Shown here: positions 21,497 through 31,963 of the stretch, piece after piece
Position numbering within the stretch: position 1 is the first letter of the stretch
How the letters are laid out: the number at the start of each line of letters is the position of its first letter
Source: a virus
IMG/VR virus record: IMGVR_UViG_3300014819_000024
Span: 1 to 38,875 of that record
Strand: one strand, 5' to 3'
Length of the DNA stretch: 38,875 nt
Program-made: the position numbers and the translations under genes
The notes under the pieces: generated by a model
The model's input: only the letters and a program-made list of their open reading frames with translations
What the model was told of the DNA's origin: nothing
Database searches by the model: none

Positions 21497-22291
21497 ATGT
21501 CAGATTGGATTCTTAACAGATCAACAATGAAGTGGGAACGACCAGCTCCTTCCTTTAGTGCTCCTTTACCCACACCTTTCAAAGCCCCTCAAACCACCCC
21601 TACTCAACCACAGGTTGCAGAAAAAGCTCCCACAATGCCTCAAAATGAGCCTACAATGGCCTTAAAAGTGAACTTAAATAGTGACCAAGTAGATTCTCTT
21701 ACAGGCATCATTCGGGACTCAGCAAGAGCCATTATGAAAGCAGAAGGTGTTTCAGCCGTCCAATCTGGCCGTAAAGAGACCTTTGGCTTTCGAGAAGGCA
21801 ACCCCGGCTACCAAGAGGTCAGCCAAGCTGTGCAGAAGTTTGGTGCTAATAGCGAACAGGCCACCAATGCTGTAGCTAACCAGCTTTCTTCAAAGCTCAA
21901 GGTCGTAGGGCTACCTAATGTAACCGATGCTGGCATGATTGGAGCCATTATGTCTGTTGCACACATGAGGGGTGATTCGGGTGCTAGGGCTATTCTTAAC
22001 TCAATCGGTACTGGCTCTGACAAGATCGAGTTCAGCCGTAAGGACATCACACCAGAAGCCCTTAAGGTTTTGAATGGTATGAGTGCTGGCGAGTTCCATA
22101 CCAAGCTACGGCAAGCCAGAGAGCTGTATGACAAGACCCATTACTGGAACAAGACAGACAGCATCAAGATGGCTAATGGTAACACCCAGACAGGTAGATG
22201 GGGTGACCTCTTTGGTAAAGGGCTTATCAACCGCTACAATGATGAATATAAGACTTTCAGTAGGCTATCTAGTGGCTCCCCTACGGGGTAA
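21497..22291 (+). CDS. Putative endolysin / peptidoglycan hydrolase
   Basis: 264 residues. A Pro/Thr/Gln-rich N-terminal linker (about 1-60) is followed by a globular helical domain: IIRDSARAIMKAEGVSA, a G-F-REG-N-GY segment, then LPNVTDAGMIGAIMSVAHMR and a final RWGDLFGKGLINRYNDEYKT (about 236-255). The helical arrangement, the Glu after IMKA and the closing G-x-W-x-x-L-x-x-K-G-x-x-x-R pattern resemble phage muramidase or chitosanase-like lysins, and the place after the large terminase is common for lysis genes. A virion-borne cell-wall enzyme is an alternative, since gp16 here lacks a transglycosylase domain. No diagnostic catalytic set was confirmed. Confidence 0.5.
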   Translation: MSDWILNRSTMKWERPAPSFSAPLPTPFKAPQTTPTQPQVAEKAPTMPQNEPTMALKVNLNSDQVDSLTGIIRDSARAIMKAEGVSAVQSGRKETFGFREGNPGYQEVSQAVQKFGANSEQATNAVANQLSSKLKVVGLPNVTDAGMIGAIMSVAHMRGDSGARAILNSIGTGSDKIEFSRKDITPEALKVLNGMSAGEFHTKLRQARELYDKTHYWNKTDSIKMANGNTQTGRWGDLFGKGLINRYNDEYKTFSRLSSGSPTG

Positions 22292-22332
22292 CACAATATA
22301 AAGAAGATTTGTTACAAGCCTAGACTTAAGTT

Positions 22333-22356
22333 GTTTATAGTTAATAGTTTATAGTT
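22333..22356. repeat. Tandem 10-bp direct repeat, 14-bp period
   Basis: GTTTATAGTT occurs at 22333-22342 and again at 22347-22356, separated by AATA. It lies 20 bases upstream of a TATAGT hexamer and may be a binding site or part of a promoter. Confidence 0.7.
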
Positions 22357-22425
22357 TTCCCTTATGGGAATTGTCTGTATAGTAGAGGGAGACGATCTGA
22401 TTCTCCTTACTTAAACGAATCTTAA

Positions 22426-22466
22426 GGGGGTATAGTTTAAGGTCACTTTATGGGGGTAAGGGGGTA
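22426..22466. repeat. Three GGGGGTA repeats
   Basis: GGGGGTA is found at 22426-22432, 22452-22458 and 22460-22466 inside an otherwise AT-rich stretch. The G-runs stand out strongly. Two copies continue into TATAG or TATATAG. Confidence 0.7.
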
Positions 22467-22469
22467 TAT

Positions 22470-22506
22470 AGATTAATCATATATTAGAATAATGAGATTA
22501 ATCATA
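22470..22506. repeat. Repeated palindromic AGATTAATCATA box
   Basis: AGATTAATCATA occurs at 22470-22481 and 22495-22506, 25 bases apart. Each copy contains the perfect palindrome GATTAATC, typical of a dimeric protein binding site. Confidence 0.7.
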
Positions 22507-22596
22507 GATATACATTCTTTAAAAAATACTAGTAAGTAATAACCTATTCTAAACTTCTATAATAACATTTACATAACCAATGTATGATATATGTCC

Positions 22597-22625
22597 TTTA
22601 CAAAATGAATAAAGTTACTTAAAAA
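22597..22625 (+). promoter_or_regulatory. Sigma70-like promoter, predicted leaderless
   Basis: TTTACA (22597-22602), 17-base spacer, TAAAAA (22620-22625). Only 6 bases separate the -10 box from the ATG at 22632, so transcription would start at or next to the start codon. The -10 matches the consensus at 4 of 6 positions. Confidence 0.4.
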
Positions 22626-22631
22626 ACTTAA

Positions 22632-22778
22632 ATGCCTTTAGGACTCAACATTCAAAAAAACATTAAAGAACTTATGGCTGACAATAAGAAAAAAGGTAAA
22701 GCCAAAGGTGCTTCTGGTAAAAAACGTAGCATGGCTCAGATTCTTGCTATTGCTTATTCAAAAGGTCGTAGCAAATGA
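22632..22778 (+). CDS. Small basic phage protein, 48 aa
   Basis: 48 residues, very basic, beginning MPLGLNIQKNIKELMADNKK and ending in a KKRSMAQILAIAYSKGRSK motif. Motifs of the form KRS.xQ.xAIA.SK.R recur in small basic phage and bacterial proteins (DUF6496-like) and suggest nucleic acid binding. No Shine-Dalgarno sequence is present; a sigma70-like promoter ends 6 bases before the ATG. The stop overlaps the start of the next small gene (ATGA), so both are probably one unit. Confidence 0.6.
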   Translation: MPLGLNIQKNIKELMADNKKKGKAKGASGKKRSMAQILAIAYSKGRSK

Positions 22779-22906
22779 AAAAAGGTCTTTACTACAATAT
22801 CAACAGACGCAAGAAGCTAGGCATTAGCCGTAGCAAAAAGAACTCTACGATTGACCTTAAGATTTATAAGAAGATGAAGAATAAAACTGGCGGGTTTGCT
22901 AAATAA
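22775..22906 (+). CDS. Small basic phage protein of the MKKGLYYNI type, 43 aa
   Basis: 43 residues starting MKKGLYYNINRRKKLGISRS and rich in Lys and Arg throughout. Short proteins opening with KKGLY.NI.(K/R)R are common near the genome ends of marine T7-like phages and cyanophages; their function is not established, though DNA binding fits the charge. It overlaps the previous gene by 4 bases and ends one base before the next start. Confidence 0.65.
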   Translation: MKKGLYYNINRRKKLGISRSKKNSTIDLKIYKKMKNKTGGFAK

Positions 22907-22907
22907 T

Positions 22908-23162
22908 ATGTGTTCAGTATTGAATAATGCTTCCGCTGTTCGAGATAGGGTATTTTTAGAAATTAGCAACCAAGCCAAAGCACGGGGTCTAGGTGATGCT
23001 CAACAAACACAAACGGCTTCTGTTCCACAAGCTACAACAAGCCCTTTAGCTACTGATGCAGTTTCAGCAACCTCTCCAGCAAAACAGAAAAGAACTAGAT
23101 TGCGTGGAGTTTCTAGTTTAACTATACCTACTGAATCGTCTGGTGTAAATGTGCCTCAATGA
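22908..23162 (+). CDS. Unknown phage protein with MC start and RGVSSLTIP tail
   Basis: 84 residues starting MCSVLNNASAVRDRVFLEIS, a Thr/Ser/Ala/Pro-rich middle, and the C-terminus KRTRLRGVSSLTIPTESSG then VNVPQ. The C-terminus resembles that of the Gly/Pro-rich protein at the window ends (both have an Arg-rich stretch, L.I, then (I/V)N.P(E/Q)), and both begin MC, so they may be distant relatives with a structural role. An in-frame TTG lies 12 bases upstream, but ATG 22908 is preferred. The stop overlaps the next ATG. Confidence 0.55.
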   Translation: MCSVLNNASAVRDRVFLEISNQAKARGLGDAQQTQTASVPQATTSPLATDAVSATSPAKQKRTRLRGVSSLTIPTESSGVNVPQ

Positions 23163-23467
23163 AGATTGGCCCGTTGGAGTTTGAGGTCGTAGAGTACGAC
23201 TCCACTTCAGCATATAAAAAGCTTATGGGGAACGAAGGTTCCTCTGATATGTTCGGTATTTGCCAAACATACCCCAAGACTCAGATTCTCATTAACAGCC
23301 TTCAAGACCCACAAAGCAAGCAACTGACTTTGCTCCATGAAGTGCTAGAGGCTATTAACTTCCTTTACGAGATTAAGCTGTCAGAACGAGACATAAAGAC
23401 GCTTGAGGCAACACTAGGGCAAGTGCTTAAGGACAACCCTAGCTTTACCAAAGGGTTTATTACCTAG
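23159..23467 (+). CDS. Zincin-like phage protein with HEVLEAI motif
   Basis: 102 residues. The N-terminus (MKIGPLEFEVVEYDS) and the core TLLHEVLEAINFLYEIKLSE (57-76) followed by GQVLKDN match a phage family related to ImmA/IrrE-type metallopeptidases, in which an HExxHA helix normally binds zinc. Here the motif reads H60-E61-V-L-E64, so the second His is replaced by Glu; catalytic activity is doubtful or uses altered ligands. The function in phages is unknown. The gene end overlaps the oppositely oriented secreted protein gene by 8 bases. Confidence 0.6.
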   Translation: MKIGPLEFEVVEYDSTSAYKKLMGNEGSSDMFGICQTYPKTQILINSLQDPQSKQLTLLHEVLEAINFLYEIKLSERDIKTLEATLGQVLKDNPSFTKGFIT

Positions 23468-23732
23468 TCCCGCTACCAAAGTAATCGCTACCAACTTTGG
23501 TCGTATATGTACGAGGGCCGTAATAGCTGTCGCCCTGCTTAATGGTGATTCCACCAGCACCAAAATAGGTGTCACGAACTTTAGTCACTACACCTGTACT
23601 GGTAAAGGCTGTGTTGTTCACGATTGTAGTTGTACCTCTGGACTGATGGGACACACCTAAGAACTCAGACCAGTTATCTTCAGCCTGTAGGGTTGCGGTT
23701 AGGAAGGTTAAGATTAATAATAGTGTTTTCAT
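23460..23732 (-). CDS. Secreted 14-residue-repeat protein on the reverse strand
   Basis: 90 residues on the minus strand, the only confident reverse gene. A clear signal peptide (MKTLLLILTFLTATLQA, cleavage expected after residue 17) precedes EDNWSEFLG and four 14-residue repeats of the type T-x-x-x-x-(N/D)-(S/T)-x-(F/Y)-x-x-x-G, for example VTKVRDTYFGAGG and TTKVGSDYFGSGT. Proteins with such (N/D)T.F..(D/N)G units are small exported bacterial and phage proteins of unknown role. A good minus-strand promoter (GATAAT at 23741-23746) ends 8 bases before its ATG. The reverse orientation, separate promoter and export signal suggest a moron expressed independently, perhaps as a lysogenic trait. Confidence 0.7.
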   Translation of the reverse strand: MKTLLLILTFLTATLQAEDNWSEFLGVSHQSRGTTTIVNNTAFTSTGVVTKVRDTYFGAGGITIKQGDSYYGPRTYTTKVGSDYFGSGTR

Positions 23733-23740
23733 TGGTGTAG

Positions 23741-23769
23741 ATTATCCAGCATTTGTCCGAGTTAGTCAA
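23741..23769 (-). promoter_or_regulatory. Sigma70-like promoter for the reverse-strand secreted protein
   Basis: On the minus strand: TTGACT (complement of 23764-23769), 17-base spacer, GATAAT (complement of 23741-23746), each 5 of 6 to consensus. Eight bases separate the -10 box from the ATG, leaving no room for a ribosome site. Confidence 0.65.
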
Positions 23770-23803
23770 TAGGGTCACAGCAAGTAGTAGGGCAACTTAT
23801 GGG

Positions 23804-23831
23804 TTGACACTAAAAGCCTTAAGGATTTAGT
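23804..23831 (+). promoter_or_regulatory. Sigma70-like promoter, divergent from the reverse gene
   Basis: Perfect TTGACA (23804-23809), 16-base spacer, TTTAGT (23826-23831). The ATG of the next gene is 8 bases further, so the transcript would be leaderless or nearly so. It diverges from the promoter at 23741-23769. Confidence 0.6.
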
Positions 23832-23839
23832 GTGCCGAT

Positions 23840-24091
23840 ATGTCACAACCCGCAAGCGGTAAAAAGTATTCCAAGCTAGTCATTAACCCCAAGACTGGTC
23901 GAAAGAACAAGGTAAGCTACGGAGCTAGGGGGTACACAATCGCACCTTCCACAAGCCGAGGAGATAGCTATTGTGCCAGAAGCTATGGTCAAATGAAGAA
24001 GTTTCCAGCATCGGCTAAGAACCCTAATAGCCCCTTACGATTGAGCAGGGCTAAGTGGAAGTGTAGTGGTAGCGTAAGCAGACGTAGTTAA
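23840..24091 (+). CDS. Small basic Cys-containing phage protein, 83 aa
   Basis: 83 residues: KKYSKLVINPKTGRKNKVSY, GARGYTIAPSTSRGDSYCAR, then NPNSPLRLSRAKWKCSGS. The S-RGD-YCARS and LSRxKWKC blocks define a family of small basic proteins in cyanophages and other marine phages (domain of unknown function, possibly DUF6321). The two conserved Cys might bind metal. It is first behind its own promoter, with no ribosome site. The role is unknown; it lies near the genome terminus with the other small basic proteins. Confidence 0.65.
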   Translation: MSQPASGKKYSKLVINPKTGRKNKVSYGARGYTIAPSTSRGDSYCARSYGQMKKFPASAKNPNSPLRLSRAKWKCSGSVSRRS

Positions 24092-24653
24092 GGGGTCTTA
24101 AGATTTTGGTGAAAAAATCTGAGAGAGTATTAACGTGAATTACTGGTGCGTTTTCCCCCATCGACTTTTTTAGGAAAGTTTTCAGCGGTCGATGCCATGT
24201 CGGGCCTCTATCAGCTCCAGCCGTTGCACGACTGATGCAACCAGAAAAAAGACGGGCAGGAATTGGGCAAGCAGGACAGGCTCTAGCAGGGGAGTGAACG
24301 GATTAAGAATGTTTACACCGCCGATGCAACGCCGTCCCAGCTTGTAGAAAGAGGAAACGGGATTGATGTGGGAAGCAGGGGAGTTTTCTGGGCTTTGCTT
24401 ATTGTGAAACGCTTGCAATCGTGACGCATGAAAAACTTTTTCGTGTTTTTTTATTATACCTTGTAACTATTAAAAAAGCATAAACCAACCATAAACACAC
24501 CTACTATCATTTCTCTATCACTCTTTTTTGCTTGCCAAAAACTCAAATCGACAAGGTGAGCCGTAAATGGCCTTAGAAACGCTCGACACCGCTTCCCGCT
24601 ATCCTCTATCTAGAAACACACTAAATATCTTTTCATAAAGAGATAAATATCCC
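24092..24653. other. Intergenic region with GC-rich patch, possible ncRNA
   Basis: About 560 bases without a convincing forward gene. It holds an AGATTTT/AAAATCT hairpin (around 24110-24130), a diverged copy of the AATTAC..GTGCGTTT repeat (24138-24153), a CATCGAC/GTCGATG dyad (24159-24165 with 24188-24194), a GTTGCA/TGCAAC hairpin (24223-24241) and an intrinsic terminator at 24427-24452. Bases 24181-24420 are 53 percent G+C by direct count, clearly above the AT-rich flanks. A reverse frame (24182-24418, TTG start, 78 residues with one hydrophobic segment) is open there but has no ribosome site; it is left uncalled. A structured RNA or a transferred fragment are both possible. Confidence 0.45.
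24427..24452 (+). terminator. Intrinsic terminator
   Basis: Stem CATGAAA with TTTCGTG (7 pairs, one G-U) around the loop AACTT, followed by seven T (24446-24452). It would insulate the next promoter from transcripts started at 23804. Confidence 0.65.
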
Positions 24654-24682
24654 TTGACACACTTCACGCTCTCCAGTATCTT
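24654..24682 (+). promoter_or_regulatory. Strong sigma70-like promoter of the amidoligase operon
   Basis: Perfect TTGACA (24654-24659), 17-base spacer, TATCTT (24677-24682; 4 of 6). The ATG of the first small gene follows after 6 bases, so the start of transcription falls on or beside the start codon. It is the best host-type promoter in the window and heads an operon that closes at the terminator 26949-26984. Confidence 0.75.
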
Positions 24683-24688
24683 CACCTT

Positions 24689-24790
24689 ATGCAAGACGAA
24701 ATCTGGACGCTCCTAACCTTTGGAATCCTCTGCGGAGTAGCAGGGTTTTTTTGGGGTGCGGTTTATGTCCTAACAAATAGAAAGAAATAA
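24689..24790 (+). CDS. 33-aa single-span membrane peptide, first gene of the operon
   Basis: 33 residues: MQDEIWTLLTFGILC, hydrophobic through GVAGFFWGAVYVL, and a basic tail TNRKK. One membrane span with a positively charged C-terminus, so the tail should lie in the cytoplasm. No ribosome site; the ATG is at the predicted transcript start. It lies 7 bases before the amidoligase gene. A second 33-residue membrane peptide follows the amidotransferase gene, so the two enzymes are bracketed by small membrane proteins. It could anchor or regulate them; no homologous family is recognised. Confidence 0.6.
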   Translation: MQDEIWTLLTFGILCGVAGFFWGAVYVLTNRKK

Positions 24791-24797
24791 AAACACA

Positions 24798-25763
24798 ATG
24801 AAAAACACACTATACAAAAAAGCACTACGATGGGGAGGCTTAGATATGTCCTCCTTTGATACTCCAACTAAAATGACCATTGGCCGTAAACTGAAATTTA
24901 TGGCTAGGCAGTCCCGTTTAGATACTACGGACTTCCCTCCGGGCGTTCCCGTAAAACAGCTTGGCAACTTTCAACGCTCTGCCGTATGGCTTTGGTCTGC
25001 TATGCAGGAGAAGAGAAAGACACACCGCCCACTCCTTCCCGTGATGCAACGGGAGCTGGGAATCCGTGACCTGCTCAACATTCAGAGCCATAGGGGTGAG
25101 TTTGTAGGAGTTGAATTGGAGTTTTTACTGCCAAGGCAGGTAAATTCCTCGACCCTACGCACTAGCAAATTCATCGCCCTAACTAGTGATGGCTCTATTT
25201 GTCCTCCTAGTGGCTACATTGGCCTAGAGGCTAATGTGGTTTATGTGCGTGGAGTGAGTGAAAATAGGCTAGATAAATTCTGCGAAAAACTAGCTCTATC
25301 ACAAGCACAGGTAAACAAATCCTGCGGTTTGCATATTCACCTCGACCAACGCAACGTATCACGGGCAACCGCTTGGAGACGATACCACCGCCTAGTGTCG
25401 GCTCTCCCTTGGCTTAAACTCGCAGTCCCTCCCTCTAGGATAGGGAATAGCTACTGCCGTTTAAATTGTGAAGGGGAGAATCCCGAAAACTATGACCGCT
25501 ATATGGCAATCAACTGGAAAGCCTACACCGAACACGGGACAATTGAAGTACGCCTCTTAAACGGGACGACTTCAGCCGACAAGATTAAGCATTGGGTATC
25601 CCTTTGCATAGGTGCAAGCAGGAACACACTTCCCACGATTGACGCTATGATGAATTGCAACGAAATCCCACGGGAGGCTAAAGAGTGGTATATGGCAAGA
25701 AAACGAAAGTTCTATCCCGACAACAACGCAAGCGGGATGAGTGAAGAAGGCTCAGAAGATTAA
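24798..25763 (+). CDS. Amidoligase, glutamine-synthetase fold (Amidoligase_2 type)
   Basis: 321 residues. After a basic N-terminal region (1-95) the enzyme core begins at GEFVGVELEFLLP (100-112), the metal-binding GVE.E motif of the GS-like COOH-NH2 ligases. SCGLHIHLDQRN (175-186) gives the second metal-binding segment, and RYMAIN (234-239) with HGTIEVRLLNGT (246-257) supplies the family's conserved Arg and Asn/Gly region. These enzymes use ATP to join a carboxyl to an amine, making amide or isopeptide bonds on peptides, proteins or small metabolites. The target here is unknown. A class II glutamine amidotransferase follows after 32 bases, a pairing known for this family, in which ammonia from glutamine may be the amine donor. 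The leader is AC-rich without a clear ribosome site. Confidence 0.85.
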   Translation: MKNTLYKKALRWGGLDMSSFDTPTKMTIGRKLKFMARQSRLDTTDFPPGVPVKQLGNFQRSAVWLWSAMQEKRKTHRPLLPVMQRELGIRDLLNIQSHRGEFVGVELEFLLPRQVNSSTLRTSKFIALTSDGSICPPSGYIGLEANVVYVRGVSENRLDKFCEKLALSQAQVNKSCGLHIHLDQRNVSRATAWRRYHRLVSALPWLKLAVPPSRIGNSYCRLNCEGENPENYDRYMAINWKAYTEHGTIEVRLLNGTTSADKIKHWVSLCIGASRNTLPTIDAMMNCNEIPREAKEWYMARKRKFYPDNNASGMSEEGSED

Positions 25764-25795
25764 ACACAACAACCAATTAAGAAAGAAAAAACACT

Positions 25796-26521
25796 ATGTG
25801 CATAGCAATCGTAAAAACTAAGAACGCAAAGATCAGCAGAAAGCACCTCGAAAACTCTGCTCAAAGTAATCCAGACGGGTTCGGCATAGCGTGGGCAGAC
25901 GGGCAACGCCTACGCACCTTTAAGACGATGAAGGCGGGAGAGTGGATTGACAAAATTATGACGCTGGAGAAGGCAACCGCTATCATTCACGCCCGTATCA
26001 CTACGCACGGGGCGACAGACTTGGAAAACTGCCACCCGTTCAGAGTCTCGAAAGGTATGGCTTTCATTCACAATGGATGCCTTCCAATATCCACCGCCGA
26101 CAAGCCAACACGCTCAGACACTTGGCACTTCAATCAGAAAGTGATGCAACCACTAGTACGGGACACGGGGGCGATTACTCCACCGCTTGTCGAAATGCTT
26201 CACGAGTACGCCAAGGGGTCAAAGTTATGCTTCCTAAACTATACTGGTAAATTCATTATCATAAATGAATCTGCTGGGCACTGGTCTGGGGGCGTTTGGT
26301 ACTCTAACAGCTCCTACAAAAACTCGTGCGATTGGTGGAAAACTGGGGGTTATACTTGCCCACCCTCTTACTACGGACGCTCGCCCGTGCAAATCATCCC
26401 GTCCTCTGGGGGCGTTGTCCCGATTGACGATGATGATGCCGTAGAAAGGCTCATAGAAGCTGATTCGATTAAGAAATGGGAACAGCAATCATTCCACAGC
26501 ACCGAAGGGGCGTGGGAATAA
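25796..26521 (+). CDS. Class II (Ntn-type) glutamine amidotransferase-like protein
   Basis: 241 residues beginning MC, so Cys2 becomes the N-terminal nucleophile after Met removal. Family motifs follow in order: NPDGFGIAW (25-33), HARITTHG (65-72, glutamine-binding Arg67), NCHPF (78-82), HNG (92-94, oxyanion hole) and SDTWHF (107-112, with Asp108). The later LCFLNYTGKFIIINES block is also typical of the Ntn fold. It should release ammonia from glutamine or catalyse a related transfer. No synthetase domain is fused, so the partner is probably the amidoligase just upstream. The C-terminal 70 residues (Gly, Tyr and Asp-rich) are not recognised. Its stop overlaps the next start. Confidence 0.85.
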   Translation: MCIAIVKTKNAKISRKHLENSAQSNPDGFGIAWADGQRLRTFKTMKAGEWIDKIMTLEKATAIIHARITTHGATDLENCHPFRVSKGMAFIHNGCLPISTADKPTRSDTWHFNQKVMQPLVRDTGAITPPLVEMLHEYAKGSKLCFLNYTGKFIIINESAGHWSGGVWYSNSSYKNSCDWWKTGGYTCPPSYYGRSPVQIIPSSGGVVPIDDDDAVERLIEADSIKKWEQQSFHSTEGAWE

Positions 26522-26935: not shown

Positions 26936-26948
26936 TTGATGCAACAAG

Positions 26949-26984
26949 CGGGGGCGGGGTTCCAATCCCTTCCCCCGTTTTTTT
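26949..26984 (+). terminator. Strong intrinsic terminator closing the amidoligase operon
   Basis: CGGGGG (26949-26954) pairs with CCCCCG (26972-26977); an inner GGG/CCC stem extends it around the loop TTCCAAT region; seven T follow (26978-26984). It defines the 3' end of the unit that begins at 24654. Confidence 0.88.
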
Positions 26985-27005
26985 GTGCCTAGATGCCTAA
27001 TACAA

Positions 27006-27053: not shown

Positions 27054-27172
27054 TGAAAATCCAGAAAAATCCACTTTTCTTACTCTGTAAGGAATATAAA
27101 AAGATAAATATAATAAGATATGATATATAGAAATACTACTTTATTTATGAAATAAATAAGAAGATATATATA

Positions 27173-27206
27173 TATGATAGATATATATGATAGTGACTTA
27201 TGATAG
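27173..27206. repeat. Three TATGATAG iterons with exact 13-bp period
   Basis: TATGATAG begins at 27173, 27186 and 27199. Copies are identical and the period is constant. They close an AT-rich tract, a layout typical of initiator or regulator binding sites. Confidence 0.75.
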
Positions 27207-27227
27207 CGAGCCACATTTGGCTGGCAA

Positions 27228-27319
27228 TTACCTGTGCGTTTTACCTGTGCGTTTATAAGATGTGCTTATACTTTTCAAACAGAGTGTTTTTCCCTTTGCT
27301 TTTAATTACCCGTGCGTTT
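27228..27319. repeat. Three TTACCYGTGCGTTT direct repeats
   Basis: Copies at 27228-27241, 27241-27254 and 27306-27319; the first two are identical and share one base, the third has C for T. Start distances are 13 and 65 bases. A fourth, diverged copy lies at 24140-24153, before the amidoligase operon. All are noncoding. Confidence 0.8.
27254..27270. promoter_or_regulatory. TATAAG-N5-CTTATA dyad, operator or recombination-core candidate
   Basis: A perfect inverted repeat with 6-base arms and a 5-base centre, set between repeat copies two and three. TATAAG is also a near-consensus -10 hexamer, so a protein bound here could block transcription. Confidence 0.5.
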
Positions 27320-27332: not shown

Positions 27333-27503
27333 ATGAAACACATAGCAATAACCAAAGACAACTACTACAACCTACGCCTCCTATACGAGAACAGCATATC
27401 GGCTGGTAAAAAACCGAATGATGTAGTCGTGTGGAAGGGAACTGAAATGCTTGTCGGCTACTTAAAGTATGTCGTTGAGTACATGAAAGGAATCGTCCTT
27501 TGA
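27333..27503 (+). CDS. Small phage protein upstream of integrase, 56 aa
   Basis: 56 residues: MKHIAITKDNYYNLRLLYEN, then KPNDVVVWKGTEMLVGYLKY and VVEYMKG. Short phage proteins with an NY..L...Y...I..GK...V.(W/F)KG.E.LV.YLKY(V/L).EY pattern are widespread and of unknown function. As the gene immediately before integrase, a regulatory or excisionase-like role is possible, but no winged-helix motif is evident. The ATG at 27333 is chosen over an in-frame upstream start at 27312, which falls in the repeat. Stop and integrase start overlap in TTTGA. Confidence 0.6.
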   Translation: MKHIAITKDNYYNLRLLYENSISAGKKPNDVVVWKGTEMLVGYLKYVVEYMKGIVL

Positions 27504-28483
27504 ACGGCTCCATTCAATCAGCAGGGGATTCATTTAATGTATCCTTCACAACCAAAGGCAAGCGTATACGCAGACGCTTCGGTTCGATGACGCAAGCTGA
27601 AGGTTACCTTATGGACTTACGCAGGGCTTGTTTAGCAGGGAAGCCTTTGCCAGAGACCGAGAGAAACCTTACGACTTGGCAAGAACTCAAAGACCAGACC
27701 TACACCCTTGTTTGGAAGGGAGCCAAAAGCGAGAACACAAGCAAGCTCAACAGCGACCATGTAGTGCGTTACTTCGGTGCTAGTACACCTGTAGCTCACT
27801 TCACGCAAGGAGACCTAGACAACTGGGTGGTATCCTTAAAAGCTCTAGGCAACTCAGATGCGACCATAAACCGCAAGCTGTCTTGCTTAAGTCGTATGCT
27901 TCGCTTCGCCCTTGAAAGAGGATTGGTAACCAAAAGGTTTATCTTTCCGATCAAGAAGGAAACCAAAGGCAGAATCCGCTACATCACCGCCGAGGAAGAG
28001 GCTGTAATCTTATCCAAGGCAAGCGACAAGCTGAAGCCTTTGTTTATCTTCTTGCTCTACACGGGGGCAAGAGTTGGTGAAGCCTTGAAGCTGACTTGGG
28101 CTGACTTCAACTGGACAAACAAGGTGGTCACATTCTGGGATACCAAGAGTGGCGAAAGCAGGAGCATCCCGATGACAACTAGTTTAGTCTTTGTTATGAA
28201 CGAGCTGATGGAGGTTGGAGGGGATAGCCCTTTCGGTCACATTAAGCAGTTTGAGGTGAACAGGGCTTGGACAAGCATACGAGACCAGATGGGCTTGACG
28301 GATGACAAAGAGTTTGTCCCGCACTCCCTTCGTCATACTTGTGCAAGCAGACTTGTTCAACGAGGCGTGCCGATTGTAGTTGTCAAAGAATGGCTGGGAC
28401 ATAAAACAATTCAGATGACAATGAGGTATGCACACCTAGCCCCAACAAACTTACTGGAAGCAGTAGGAGCATTGGAAACTTGA
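27500..28483 (+). CDS. int: Tyrosine recombinase / phage integrase
   Basis: 327 residues from a TTG start, with AAAGGA about 9 bases upstream and a 4-base overlap with the previous gene. An N-terminal arm-binding-like part (KGKRIRRRFGSMTQAEGY) is followed by a SAM-like core-binding domain (about 60-150) and the catalytic domain. The active-site set is complete: R191 in TGARVGEAL, K216 in DTKSGESR, H275 and R278 in PHSLRHT, H301 in WLGH and Y310 in MRYAHL. It should integrate the phage genome into the host chromosome and assist excision. A T7-like phage carrying it upstream of RNA polymerase resembles integrative marine podoviruses. The attachment site was not identified. Confidence 0.93.
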   Translation: MNGSIQSAGDSFNVSFTTKGKRIRRRFGSMTQAEGYLMDLRRACLAGKPLPETERNLTTWQELKDQTYTLVWKGAKSENTSKLNSDHVVRYFGASTPVAHFTQGDLDNWVVSLKALGNSDATINRKLSCLSRMLRFALERGLVTKRFIFPIKKETKGRIRYITAEEEAVILSKASDKLKPLFIFLLYTGARVGEALKLTWADFNWTNKVVTFWDTKSGESRSIPMTTSLVFVMNELMEVGGDSPFGHIKQFEVNRAWTSIRDQMGLTDDKEFVPHSLRHTCASRLVQRGVPIVVVKEWLGHKTIQMTMRYAHLAPTNLLEAVGALET

Positions 28484-29424: not shown

Positions 29425-29708
29425 GTACCATCGAAGTCCCGTTTAGGGATGTTTATTACATGAGCCACGGGGATGCAGAAACAGCCCAGTACATTAACGG
29501 AGTTGCAACCTTTGAGGCGGTTAAGGATAAGGAGTGTCCCCTTCGTTATGTAGAGTGCAACGATGTATGGGCAAGCTCGCCACTAGGTGCTTACCAAGTC
29601 GATGTAGATACGGATGAGCATAGGAAGCTGGTTCGTATAGCCGTTGAGGATGATGAAAAGGTTTGGAAGTCGGCCAAAAAGATTGCTAAAGCAAAGAAGC
29701 TCATTTGA
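29421..29708 (+). CDS. Hypothetical protein before RNA polymerase, 95 aa
   Basis: 95 residues, acidic overall with a Lys-rich end (SAKKIAKAKKLI). It opens MSTIEVPFRDVYYMSHGDAE and continues with a segment rich in Val and Asp. No known motif. Its TGA overlaps the TTG start of the RNA polymerase gene, so polymerase translation may depend on it. Confidence 0.6.
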   Translation: MSTIEVPFRDVYYMSHGDAETAQYINGVATFEAVKDKECPLRYVECNDVWASSPLGAYQVDVDTDEHRKLVRIAVEDDEKVWKSAKKIAKAKKLI

Positions 29709-31963
29709 GTTTAACGCAAACACAACTAGACCATAAGGCAGTATACGAAGCCCAGCTAAAGAGAGACAAAGCCAAGGCTAGGAATGTCTCGACTGGCAGG
29801 GAGAGTTTGTCTGGTGGTCAAGGCTTCTTGCTACGACATTCAGTTGCTTCAGTAGCAGAAACAATAGCCTTGTGGATTGATAAGGCCCAGACTTCACCCG
29901 GCCCCAAGCACAAGTCAGTTGCTTTAATGGTGCAACTAAAACCTTTGGAGCTTTCGGCCCTTACCTGTCGGGCGGTGTTGAATGGTATCTCCACCCAGAG
30001 AACCTTTGCCTCTGTAGCCTTTGAACTAGGTAGGCTTGTAGAGCACGAGGCTAGGCTTAAGGAAAGCCCCAGTAAGGAATGGAACTTAATCAAGAGAAGG
30101 ATGAAGCTACGCAAGGGGCATCGACACAAGATGCAGACGGCTTTCCGTGGGATGAAAAACAAGACTACAGCTTGGGGTACGATTGAGAAGGCATCAGTCG
30201 GTGGTGTACTTATTGAACTCTTTATCAAAAGCACAGGGCTGTGCGAGGTCATCACCACAATATCTGGTAAGGCGAGGCTTAACTACATTGTTGCATCTAA
30301 ATCCTGTTCCGAGTGGATGAAAGAGTTTGAGGGAACTGAGGTGCTTCGGCCTCTTATGCTCCCAAGGGTAGAGGCTGGTTCAGACCCCAATGCTTTTTGG
30401 GTTAAGTGCAGGTCAAAGAAGCAGGAAGCCCTTTACAAGACCCAGCCAGAAAGCGTCCGTAATTGCGTACAAGCTATGCAACAGGTGGCATGGAGGATTA
30501 ATACAGATGTGCTGGAGGTGCTGGATACCTATTACAAGAATGGGCTAGAGATTAATGGGGAACCCGTGAACTGCCACAAGGAGGTGATTAAGGAGAACTT
30601 GGATGCTCTTACCCCAGACCAATCCAAGGCCAGAATCAAGGGGATGTGGAGGTCACACACTTACAATGTTTGGAACAGAGCTAGGGGCTACTTCATTACC
30701 CAACAGATTCTCATGGCTAAAGAACTCCAAGGCCAGCCCTATTACTTACCTGTGCAACTAGACTTTAGAGGACGAGTGTATTACCTACCGACCCATATCG
30801 GGCCACAGCGGGATGACATATCGAAAGCCTTGGGTGATTTTAACGAAGCTGTGCCTTTGACTGAGGATGGCAAGTACTGGTTTAAGGTAGCTGGTTCTGC
30901 TCACTTTGGGTGTGACAAGGTTAGCTACGAGGAGCGTGTAGCGTGGGCTGAATTGCATGATAGCGATATTAGAAAGGTTGTTGCTGACCCTTACGGGTAC
31001 AAGTGGTGGCATGAAGCAGACGAGCCTTGGCAATTCTTGAGGTGGTGCTTTGCTTGGGTTAAAGGAGCTGAAAGGTATCCCGTATGCCTAGACGCTACGA
31101 GCAACGGCTTACAGATTCTTTCTCTACTTACAGGCGATGCAGAGACAGCTTTACTTACCAATGTCCTACCCAGCGATGTACCCAAGGACATTTACGGGGC
31201 TATAGCCCTAAAGGTACAACACTACCTATTGGGTACTTCGGGGGAGCTGGCAACCTTCTGGTTGCACCAAGGATGCAACAGGAAGCTGGTAAAAAGGCCC
31301 GTTATGACCATTCCGTATGGGGTATCTAGGTATGGAATGTCCCAACAGCTCATGGAACAAACCAACTGCTCTATAGTCCAAGGGCTTTACCTAGCTGATT
31401 TGATAATCAAAGCGTTGGGTGAACTAGTGCAAGCTCCACAAGAGACTATGGTTTGGCTGAAACAACTAGCTAAAATACCAACGGACAATGGCTGTCCTAT
31501 GGTATGGGTCAGTCCTTCTGGTTTTCCTGTATATCAGCCCTATTTCGTCAGTAAGTCCAAGTCCGTTAAGTTGCGTATCGGTGACACAATTAGGTACATG
31601 AACTTAACCAACAAGATAACCAGTAAGGTTGACAGGGACGCACAGATCAACAGCTTCGCCCCGAACTTCATTCACAGCCTTGATGCCAGCCTTGTTCACA
31701 TTTCCGTAGAAAGAATGAATAAGGAAAACATTACCAGCCTTTTTACAATTCACGATTGTTTTGGTTGTCACGCAAGTCGAGTACCTGCTATGAGGAAAGC
31801 TGTAGCAGAAACTATGAGGGACATATTTAAACAGCCTTTACTGAAAGCATTAAAGACAGAGGTAGCTTCATCTATTAGTTTACCTTCTAACTTCATTTTA
31901 GAGCCTTGCTATGGGGGTTTTCCCGTTGACCAAATAATCAAAAGCCTGTATCTTATTAAATAA
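29705..31963 (+). CDS. Single-subunit RNA polymerase, T7 gp1-like
   Basis: 752 residues from a TTG start (T7 has 883). Catalytic motifs are all present: DFRGRVYY (353-360), motif A CLDATSNGLQ with Asp463 (T7 D537), motif B RKLVKRPVMTIPYG with Lys530 and Tyr538 (T7 K631, Y639), and motif C TIHDCFG with His683 and Asp684 (T7 H811, D812). The missing length is mostly in the N-terminal promoter-binding region. It should transcribe the late genes from phage promoters, which could not be recognised here. It sits at the end of the coupled operon containing integrase. Confidence 0.96.
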   Translation: MSLTQTQLDHKAVYEAQLKRDKAKARNVSTGRESLSGGQGFLLRHSVASVAETIALWIDKAQTSPGPKHKSVALMVQLKPLELSALTCRAVLNGISTQRTFASVAFELGRLVEHEARLKESPSKEWNLIKRRMKLRKGHRHKMQTAFRGMKNKTTAWGTIEKASVGGVLIELFIKSTGLCEVITTISGKARLNYIVASKSCSEWMKEFEGTEVLRPLMLPRVEAGSDPNAFWVKCRSKKQEALYKTQPESVRNCVQAMQQVAWRINTDVLEVLDTYYKNGLEINGEPVNCHKEVIKENLDALTPDQSKARIKGMWRSHTYNVWNRARGYFITQQILMAKELQGQPYYLPVQLDFRGRVYYLPTHIGPQRDDISKALGDFNEAVPLTEDGKYWFKVAGSAHFGCDKVSYEERVAWAELHDSDIRKVVADPYGYKWWHEADEPWQFLRWCFAWVKGAERYPVCLDATSNGLQILSLLTGDAETALLTNVLPSDVPKDIYGAIALKVQHYLLGTSGELATFWLHQGCNRKLVKRPVMTIPYGVSRYGMSQQLMEQTNCSIVQGLYLADLIIKALGELVQAPQETMVWLKQLAKIPTDNGCPMVWVSPSGFPVYQPYFVSKSKSVKLRIGDTIRYMNLTNKITSKVDRDAQINSFAPNFIHSLDASLVHISVERMNKENITSLFTIHDCFGCHASRVPAMRKAVAETMRDIFKQPLLKALKTEVASSISLPSNFILEPCYGGFPVDQIIKSLYLIK

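Follow-up and report, generated by a model that had tools for sequence, protein, structure and literature searches.

An integrase-carrying podovirus of the T7-like kind carries, 2 kb behind its terminase gene and on the strand opposite the late genes, a small gene under purifying selection that codes for a predicted exported protein with four 14-residue repeats. The phage is the IMG/VR record IMGVR_UViG_3300014819_000024, analyzed here over its whole 38,875 bases (the window). In the reading we favor, with about an even chance of being right, the gene is an accessory unit of the moron type, transcribed by the host polymerase into a leaderless mRNA, and its exported product would alter the envelope of the carrier cell. 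The repeat-protein family is new as far as our searches go, and the kind of gene, a phage moron, is an ordinary one.

The record encodes head-tail genes and two enzymes that place it among known phages:
27500–28483, plus strand: tyrosine integrase (Pfam PF00589, E 2.7e-28).
29705–31963, plus strand: T7-type single-subunit RNA polymerase, a marker of the phage class (Pfam PF00940, E 6.8e-80).
The window phage is a member of an integrase-bearing clade of T7-like podoviruses, and it is potentially temperate because it encodes a tyrosine integrase. No tRNA genes or Rfam families are present within the window. The terminases nearest to its own, from Rhizobium, Pelagibacter, Pseudomonas and uncultured phages, share only 55–59% identity, too distant for a host to be named.

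An earlier note on this DNA had described a 90-residue minus-strand open reading frame (ORF) with four 14-residue repeats, and both the frame and the repeats are present:
23460–23732, minus strand: coding sequence of the predicted exported repeat protein (P0001), 90 aa, ATG to TAA, an open reading frame intact in 12 further virus contigs.
23682–23732, minus strand: predicted Sec signal sequence, residues 1–17, cleavage after LQA, recognized by inspection and by relaxed constraint.
23595–23636, minus strand: repeat 1, GTTTIVNNTAFTST, residues 33–46, from self-alignment.
23553–23594, minus strand: repeat 2, GVVTKVRDTYFGAG, residues 47–60, from self-alignment.
23511–23552, minus strand: repeat 3, GITIKQGDSYYGPR, residues 61–74, from self-alignment.
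23469–23510, minus strand: repeat 4, TYTTKVGSDYFGSG, residues 75–88, from self-alignment.
The protein consists of the predicted signal, MKTLLLILTFLTATLQA, followed by the predicted mature part, EDNWSEFLGVSHQSRGTTTIVNNTAFTSTGVVTKVRDTYFGAGGITIKQGDSYYGPRTYTTKVGSDYFGSGTR; the signal is clear by eye, and its cleavage was placed by inspection at MKTLLLILTFLTATLQA/ED. When the protein is aligned with itself from residue 33, an offset of 14 scores best, followed by 28, and none of 5000 composition shuffles does as well. The same offset emerges independently as the best in P0002, a 54%-identical relative (0/5000 shuffles as good). The predicted mature part comprises 73 residues (7.9 kDa, pI 8.4) and is rich in threonine (13) and glycine (11). 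The window protein contains no cysteine and hence no lipobox; P0002 has one cysteine, in the signal region, in a context that by eye is not a lipobox. AlphaFold models of the full-length window protein and of the mature part of a relative (L027) are poor, with pLDDT values of 44.8 and 44.0, too low to establish a fold. Both models place about two short strands in each repeat, a hint at this pLDDT of 44–45 that is compatible with a row of small beta-hairpins.

The 12 other IMG/VR contigs that carry the gene code for proteins of ~54–97% identity to that of the window. Nine contigs form a close group at 91–97% identity, and three (L027, L028 and L102) form a second group that is 54% identical where measured (L027 and L028). 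Frameshifts in relatives, which the earlier note had singled out as evidence that would count against the gene, are absent; all 13 records, the window included, are open and without internal stops. For the nine close sequences used in the rate comparison (36 pairs, leaving out L005 as a near-duplicate of L004 and the three members of the second group as too distant), dN/dS is 0.075 overall, with a mean dN of 0.033 and a mean dS of 0.44. The remaining five frames contain 4–13 stops each in every one of these sequences. By these measures, the minus-strand ORF at 23460–23732 is a real gene under purifying selection. Constraint is unevenly distributed, with dN/dS of 0.40 in the signal sequence versus 0.04 in the mature part, the pattern expected of an exported protein that is selected for its mature part; this contrast agrees with the predicted export. 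Between the window and L027, the repeat protein is 54% identical, whereas the terminase is 84%, the convergent 102-residue protein 75%, an amidoligase-like protein 87% and a glutamine-amidotransferase-like protein 91% identical. Judged from these alignments, the repeat protein is changing faster than its neighbors over the long term, yet is tightly held inside the close group.

The earlier note had also given the gene a promoter of its own, and a good candidate lies just upstream:
23741–23769, minus strand: sigma70-like promoter, TTGACT-17-GATAAT, matching 10/12 consensus bases, with the -10 box ending 8 nt before the ATG.
A plain promoter scan of 22200–24900 gives no excess over chance (five sites against 5.2 expected), so the case for the promoter is one of position and of conservation in relatives. 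Counting both strands, the window has 1,028 ATGs, of which only two are preceded by a promoter with at least 10/12 consensus bases, a spacer of 17 nt and a -10 box ending 6–8 nt ahead. The best promoter in each of the 13 sequences that carry the gene has its two boxes 17 nt apart, with the -10 box ending 6–8 nt before the ATG. The distance is 8 nt in the window, L006 and L007 (type A), 6 nt in L001–L005, L008 and L009 (type B) and 7 nt in L027, L028 and L102 (type C); the match to consensus is 10/12 in type A but only 9/12 in types B and C. Transcription usually starts ~7 nt past the -10 box, which at this spacing suggests that the message begins at the ATG or within two bases of it, with a leader of ~0–2 bases. 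The gene has no Shine-Dalgarno sequence, in contrast to a match of at least four bases at 17 of 30 plus-strand starts, which we picked from the ORFs of the window.

The promoter layout persists although the DNA around it differs. A blastn comparison with six type-B relatives shows the same break in every one: homology with the window runs up to the ATG (23732), ends precisely there and returns only at 24087–24091, while the DNA of the ORF itself is 86–94% identical. Alignments of the 60 bases upstream of the ATG, scored against shuffles for six of the 13 sequences, give types A and B scores of -3 to 2, within the shuffle range (maxima 3 to 6). Types A and C are clearly related in this region (scores 19 and 22, shuffle maximum 2), though their proteins are 54% identical. 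Types B and C score 3 to 7, with shuffle maxima of 2 to 7 and 2.7–3.9 standard deviations above the mean, and because of this weak resemblance the type-B upstream DNA may be strongly diverged and not replaced outright. In either case the alignments indicate that sublineages have exchanged or remade the DNA ahead of the start codon, with recombination at that codon as the probable route. We take the identical layout despite differing upstream DNA as a sign in the sequence that selection maintains independent transcription by a host-type polymerase. The type-B spacer also contains a 16-base dyad, TACAAAC-NN-GTTTGTA, with small variants, found at one site each in six of the eight records searched; the two without it belong to types A and C. 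As the dyad is confined to one related lineage, we make no claim for it as a regulatory operator.

The distribution of the gene was followed through terminase loci, taking the best 80 of 183 matches. Among these, 17 loci have a terminase at least 84% identical; ten extend to the site and all ten carry the gene, and the other seven stop less than 1 kb past the terminase. A profile of the repeat protein matched none of the 63 loci in this set with terminases of at most 60% identity. Inspection of 26 cousins revealed no similar exported repeat ORF downstream of the terminase; 20 of these have at least 3 kb downstream, and the gene, absent from all 20, is extra relative to related phages. Integrase is encoded in eight of the 13 gene-bearing records. 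The five without it measure 4.3, 4.3, 7.9, 9.9 and 25.6 kb, and from its coordinates the 25.6-kb record appears to stop short of the place where integrase is expected. Thus, the gene is a fixed possession of a small integrase-bearing clade. Morons are often scattered among phages. The suggestion in the earlier note that this is a moron gains from the host-type promoter, the opposite strand, the predicted exported product and the integrase of the phage, and loses from the fixed presence in the clade. Peptide-pattern searches of genome_contigs with the repeat-protein gene found no prophage of the window phage in bacterial genomes.

Searches of Pfam, NCBIfam, PHROG, PADLOC and PDB returned no fitting family (the best E value, 0.08, is a chance match in PDB), and against Pfam the window protein matches no family even at E 10. 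It has no match at E 10 in a collection of 50,697 phage records, no sequence relationship to any known exclusion or defense family in Pfam, PHROG or PADLOC, and only three plasmid matches, at E 5–9; its relative has none on plasmids. Among the literature titles and beginnings of abstracts listed, none describes such a protein. Two apparent carriers proved to be chance matches: in L101 a 774-aa ORF occupies the strand opposite the match, and L236 has a 227-aa ORF there.

In cellular genomes, a peptide-pattern search of genome_contigs found no relative. None of 51 repeat-pattern stretches is a relative in frame, many being unrelated conserved enzymes or stop-containing frames; one, L135, is a 94-aa frame rich in glycine, histidine and tyrosine that lacks the other features of the 14-residue repeat family. 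A four-unit period-14 pattern occurs in 19 of 398 Pseudomonadota genomes, with a backward control at a similar rate, and the matches listed appear to be other repeats. Profile searches covered samples of 6, 369, 385, 300 and 296 genomes, with a few genomes entering twice. None of 369 genomes in the gammaproteobacterial sample matches at E 0.01, and samples of Alphaproteobacteria, Burkholderiales and Bacteroidota yielded no relative. Matches at E 0.1 in 6/385, 7/300 and 4/296 genomes are below chance expectation, and no repeat protein is among the alignments listed for them. The profile recovered all 13 known records when these were supplied; an empty result carries little weight when the sample includes no known positive.

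The minus-strand gene faces a plus-strand neighbor and in some relatives is followed by a second minus-strand ORF:
23159–23467, plus strand: convergent 102-aa ORF, phrog_1233-like (ORF list and PHROG match), overlapping the 3' end of the repeat-protein gene by 8 bases.
L003:3217–3369, L008:3753–3905 and matching places in L004, L005 and L009, minus strand: 51-aa ORF, 94–100% conserved.
The 51-aa ORF starts one nucleotide past the stop of the repeat-protein gene in these five of 12 relatives and is absent from the window and the other seven. It has weak matches only, to phrog_19220 (E 0.002, unknown function) and to one phage sequence (E 0.05). Its presence in some relatives suggests that the minus strand carries a small operon that gains or loses genes, as accessory modules do.

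Several other explanations were weighed. The earlier note saw in the repeats a likeness to small exported bacterial proteins and hence capture from a host. A captured exported repeat protein, carried for the benefit of the host, would account for the predicted signal sequence and the tandem repeats, but peptide patterns, repeat patterns and profiles all failed to reveal a cellular relative, which leaves the claimed resemblance unsupported and gives capture a small chance. Since the searches were limited in reach, an unsampled host may yet have a relative, and the host may lie outside the collections. A very slim chance attaches to the idea that the RNA and not the protein matters, the minus-strand promoter yielding an antisense RNA against the convergent late genes. 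The convergent arrangement with its 8-base overlap invites it, as does the lack of any terminator-like site on the minus strand of 22200–24900 in a scan for simple hairpins followed by T. However, the strong protein-level selection on the mature part speaks for a protein, and five relatives have an ORF of ~150 bases between the two genes.

The position behind the terminase also suggests a helper of lysis or release, such as a spanin-like or anti-holin-like envelope protein, since T7-like phages keep their lysis genes there, near the right end of the genome. The predicted export signal would suit such a role, to which we assign a slight chance; the gene lies on the strand opposite the late genes under its own host-type promoter, has no lipobox, and was not found in the inspected cousins, which also must lyse. 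A more serious rival, possible though on the unlikely side, is a protein of early infection with no role in the lysogen. The host promoter would fire upon DNA entry, needing no phage RNA polymerase, and the exported product would remodel the envelope of the infected cell, for example to counter a second phage or an envelope reaction of the host. This explanation is serious because an integrase suggests but does not prove lysogeny, and because two relatives map as permuted circles. T7-like cyanophages reportedly show integration without lysogeny, to go by the title of one paper (PMC8776855). Lysogens of LUZ100, a related T7-like phage, could not be confirmed (PMC10134795). Against an early role, the gene follows the late module, is on the opposite strand and thus falls outside the usual early operon.

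The moron-type reading may be set out as follows. The gene would be a self-contained transcription unit, read by the RNA polymerase and housekeeping sigma factor of the host in the direction opposite to the phage genes. With such a promoter, the product could be made without the phage RNA polymerase, either in lysogenic cells or within the first minutes after infection. It would be exported via Sec and, after removal of the signal sequence, left in the periplasm or on the cell surface as a basic, cysteine-free protein of ~8 kDa with four beta-hairpin-like repeats. These hairpins would most likely bind an envelope or surface component, the target being a guess, and alter the carrier cell. The likeliest gain to the phage would be the exclusion of competing phages, again a guess. 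Envelope proteins of integrating phages often exclude competitors, and for that reason exclusion is placed first among the benefits. As a function taken alone, exclusion is rather unlikely; fixed presence and strong purifying selection in the close group are unlike many exclusion genes, which change fast. Less likely again is the full version, in which a previously undescribed family of secreted proteins with 14-residue repeats, made in integrase-bearing T7-like phages from a leaderless host-polymerase message, covers or plugs a target in the envelope and keeps competing phages out as a dedicated lysogenic-conversion module.

Phage morons and lysogenic conversion genes, as a class, resemble this gene in having their own host-type promoter, an orientation opposite to their neighbors and an accessory product predicted to act on the envelope. 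The repeat-protein gene differs in being fixed in its clade and not scattered, in having no known relative and in lacking a detected terminator. Ltp of the Streptococcus thermophilus phage TP-J34 and SieA of P22 are reported to be phage-encoded envelope exclusion proteins, and an exclusion role here would be by analogy with them. Ltp is a lipoprotein, unlike the cysteine-free repeat protein, for which the searches gave no sequence link to any family. The short beta-hairpin repeats of choline-binding-type and MORN proteins combine a turn with a Tyr-Tyr/Phe-Gly strand, as here; the repeat protein differs in its period of 14, and PDB has a single MORN chain, which scores E 2.9. According to the LUZ100 report, LUZ100, Pasto and HTVC019P are T7-like phages with temperate features that, like the window phage, encode a T7-type RNA polymerase and a tyrosine integrase (PMC10134795). 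The LUZ100 integrase is 36% identical to that of the window, and in the LUZ100 stretch compared, the annotated genes behind the terminase are all on the plus strand, unlike the minus-strand gene here.

The recognition of temperate features in T7-like phages is only beginning, and what the carrier gains from such phages is largely open. A conserved gene with a host-type promoter and a predicted exported product offers a concrete candidate for a function of this kind, and the same predicted leaderless layout in two unlike upstream regions is a good argument, for one drawn from sequence, that independent transcription is selected. If the exclusion reading were true, a secreted-repeat protein would form a lysogenic-conversion module in a phage group generally held to be strictly lytic. 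Otherwise the gene is one among many orphan accessory genes of phages.

Several further features lie in the surrounding DNA. An 83-aa ORF (23840–24091, plus strand) occurs behind the gene in the window, L006 and L007 and before the convergent pair in L102; a short-motif search of nine loci did not reveal it in the other six. The C-terminal part of this ORF has a weak match to the end of phrog_10346, also at the C-terminus. The amidoligase-like gene and the class-II glutamine-amidotransferase-like gene adjoin at 24798–26521 (plus strand), and the pair possibly modifies a peptide or a surface. Behind a 97-aa ORF, a strong GC hairpin with a run of T after it was noted by eye at 26940–26990 (plus strand); its right arm somewhat resembles the 3' end of a tRNA, and the hairpin is a candidate terminator or attachment core. 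The two near-complete relatives that map as permuted circles, and not as inserted prophages, measure 39.3 and 38.6 kb. They are broken at ~27100–27300 (near 27.2 kb), just upstream of integrase, and the ends of one overlap by ~120 bases on the window; the shared break points to genome ends, an attachment site or an assembly break at an AT repeat. The motif TTACCTGTGCGTTT occurs on the plus strand at 24140–24153, 27228–27241, 27241–27254 and 27306–27319, with 0–2 mismatches, and on the minus strand at 25301–25314, five matches against 0.25 expected by chance. The sites ahead of integrase and the one at 24140 have counterparts at corresponding positions in relatives, and the sites are candidates for integrase arm sites, repressor operators or promoters of the phage polymerase.
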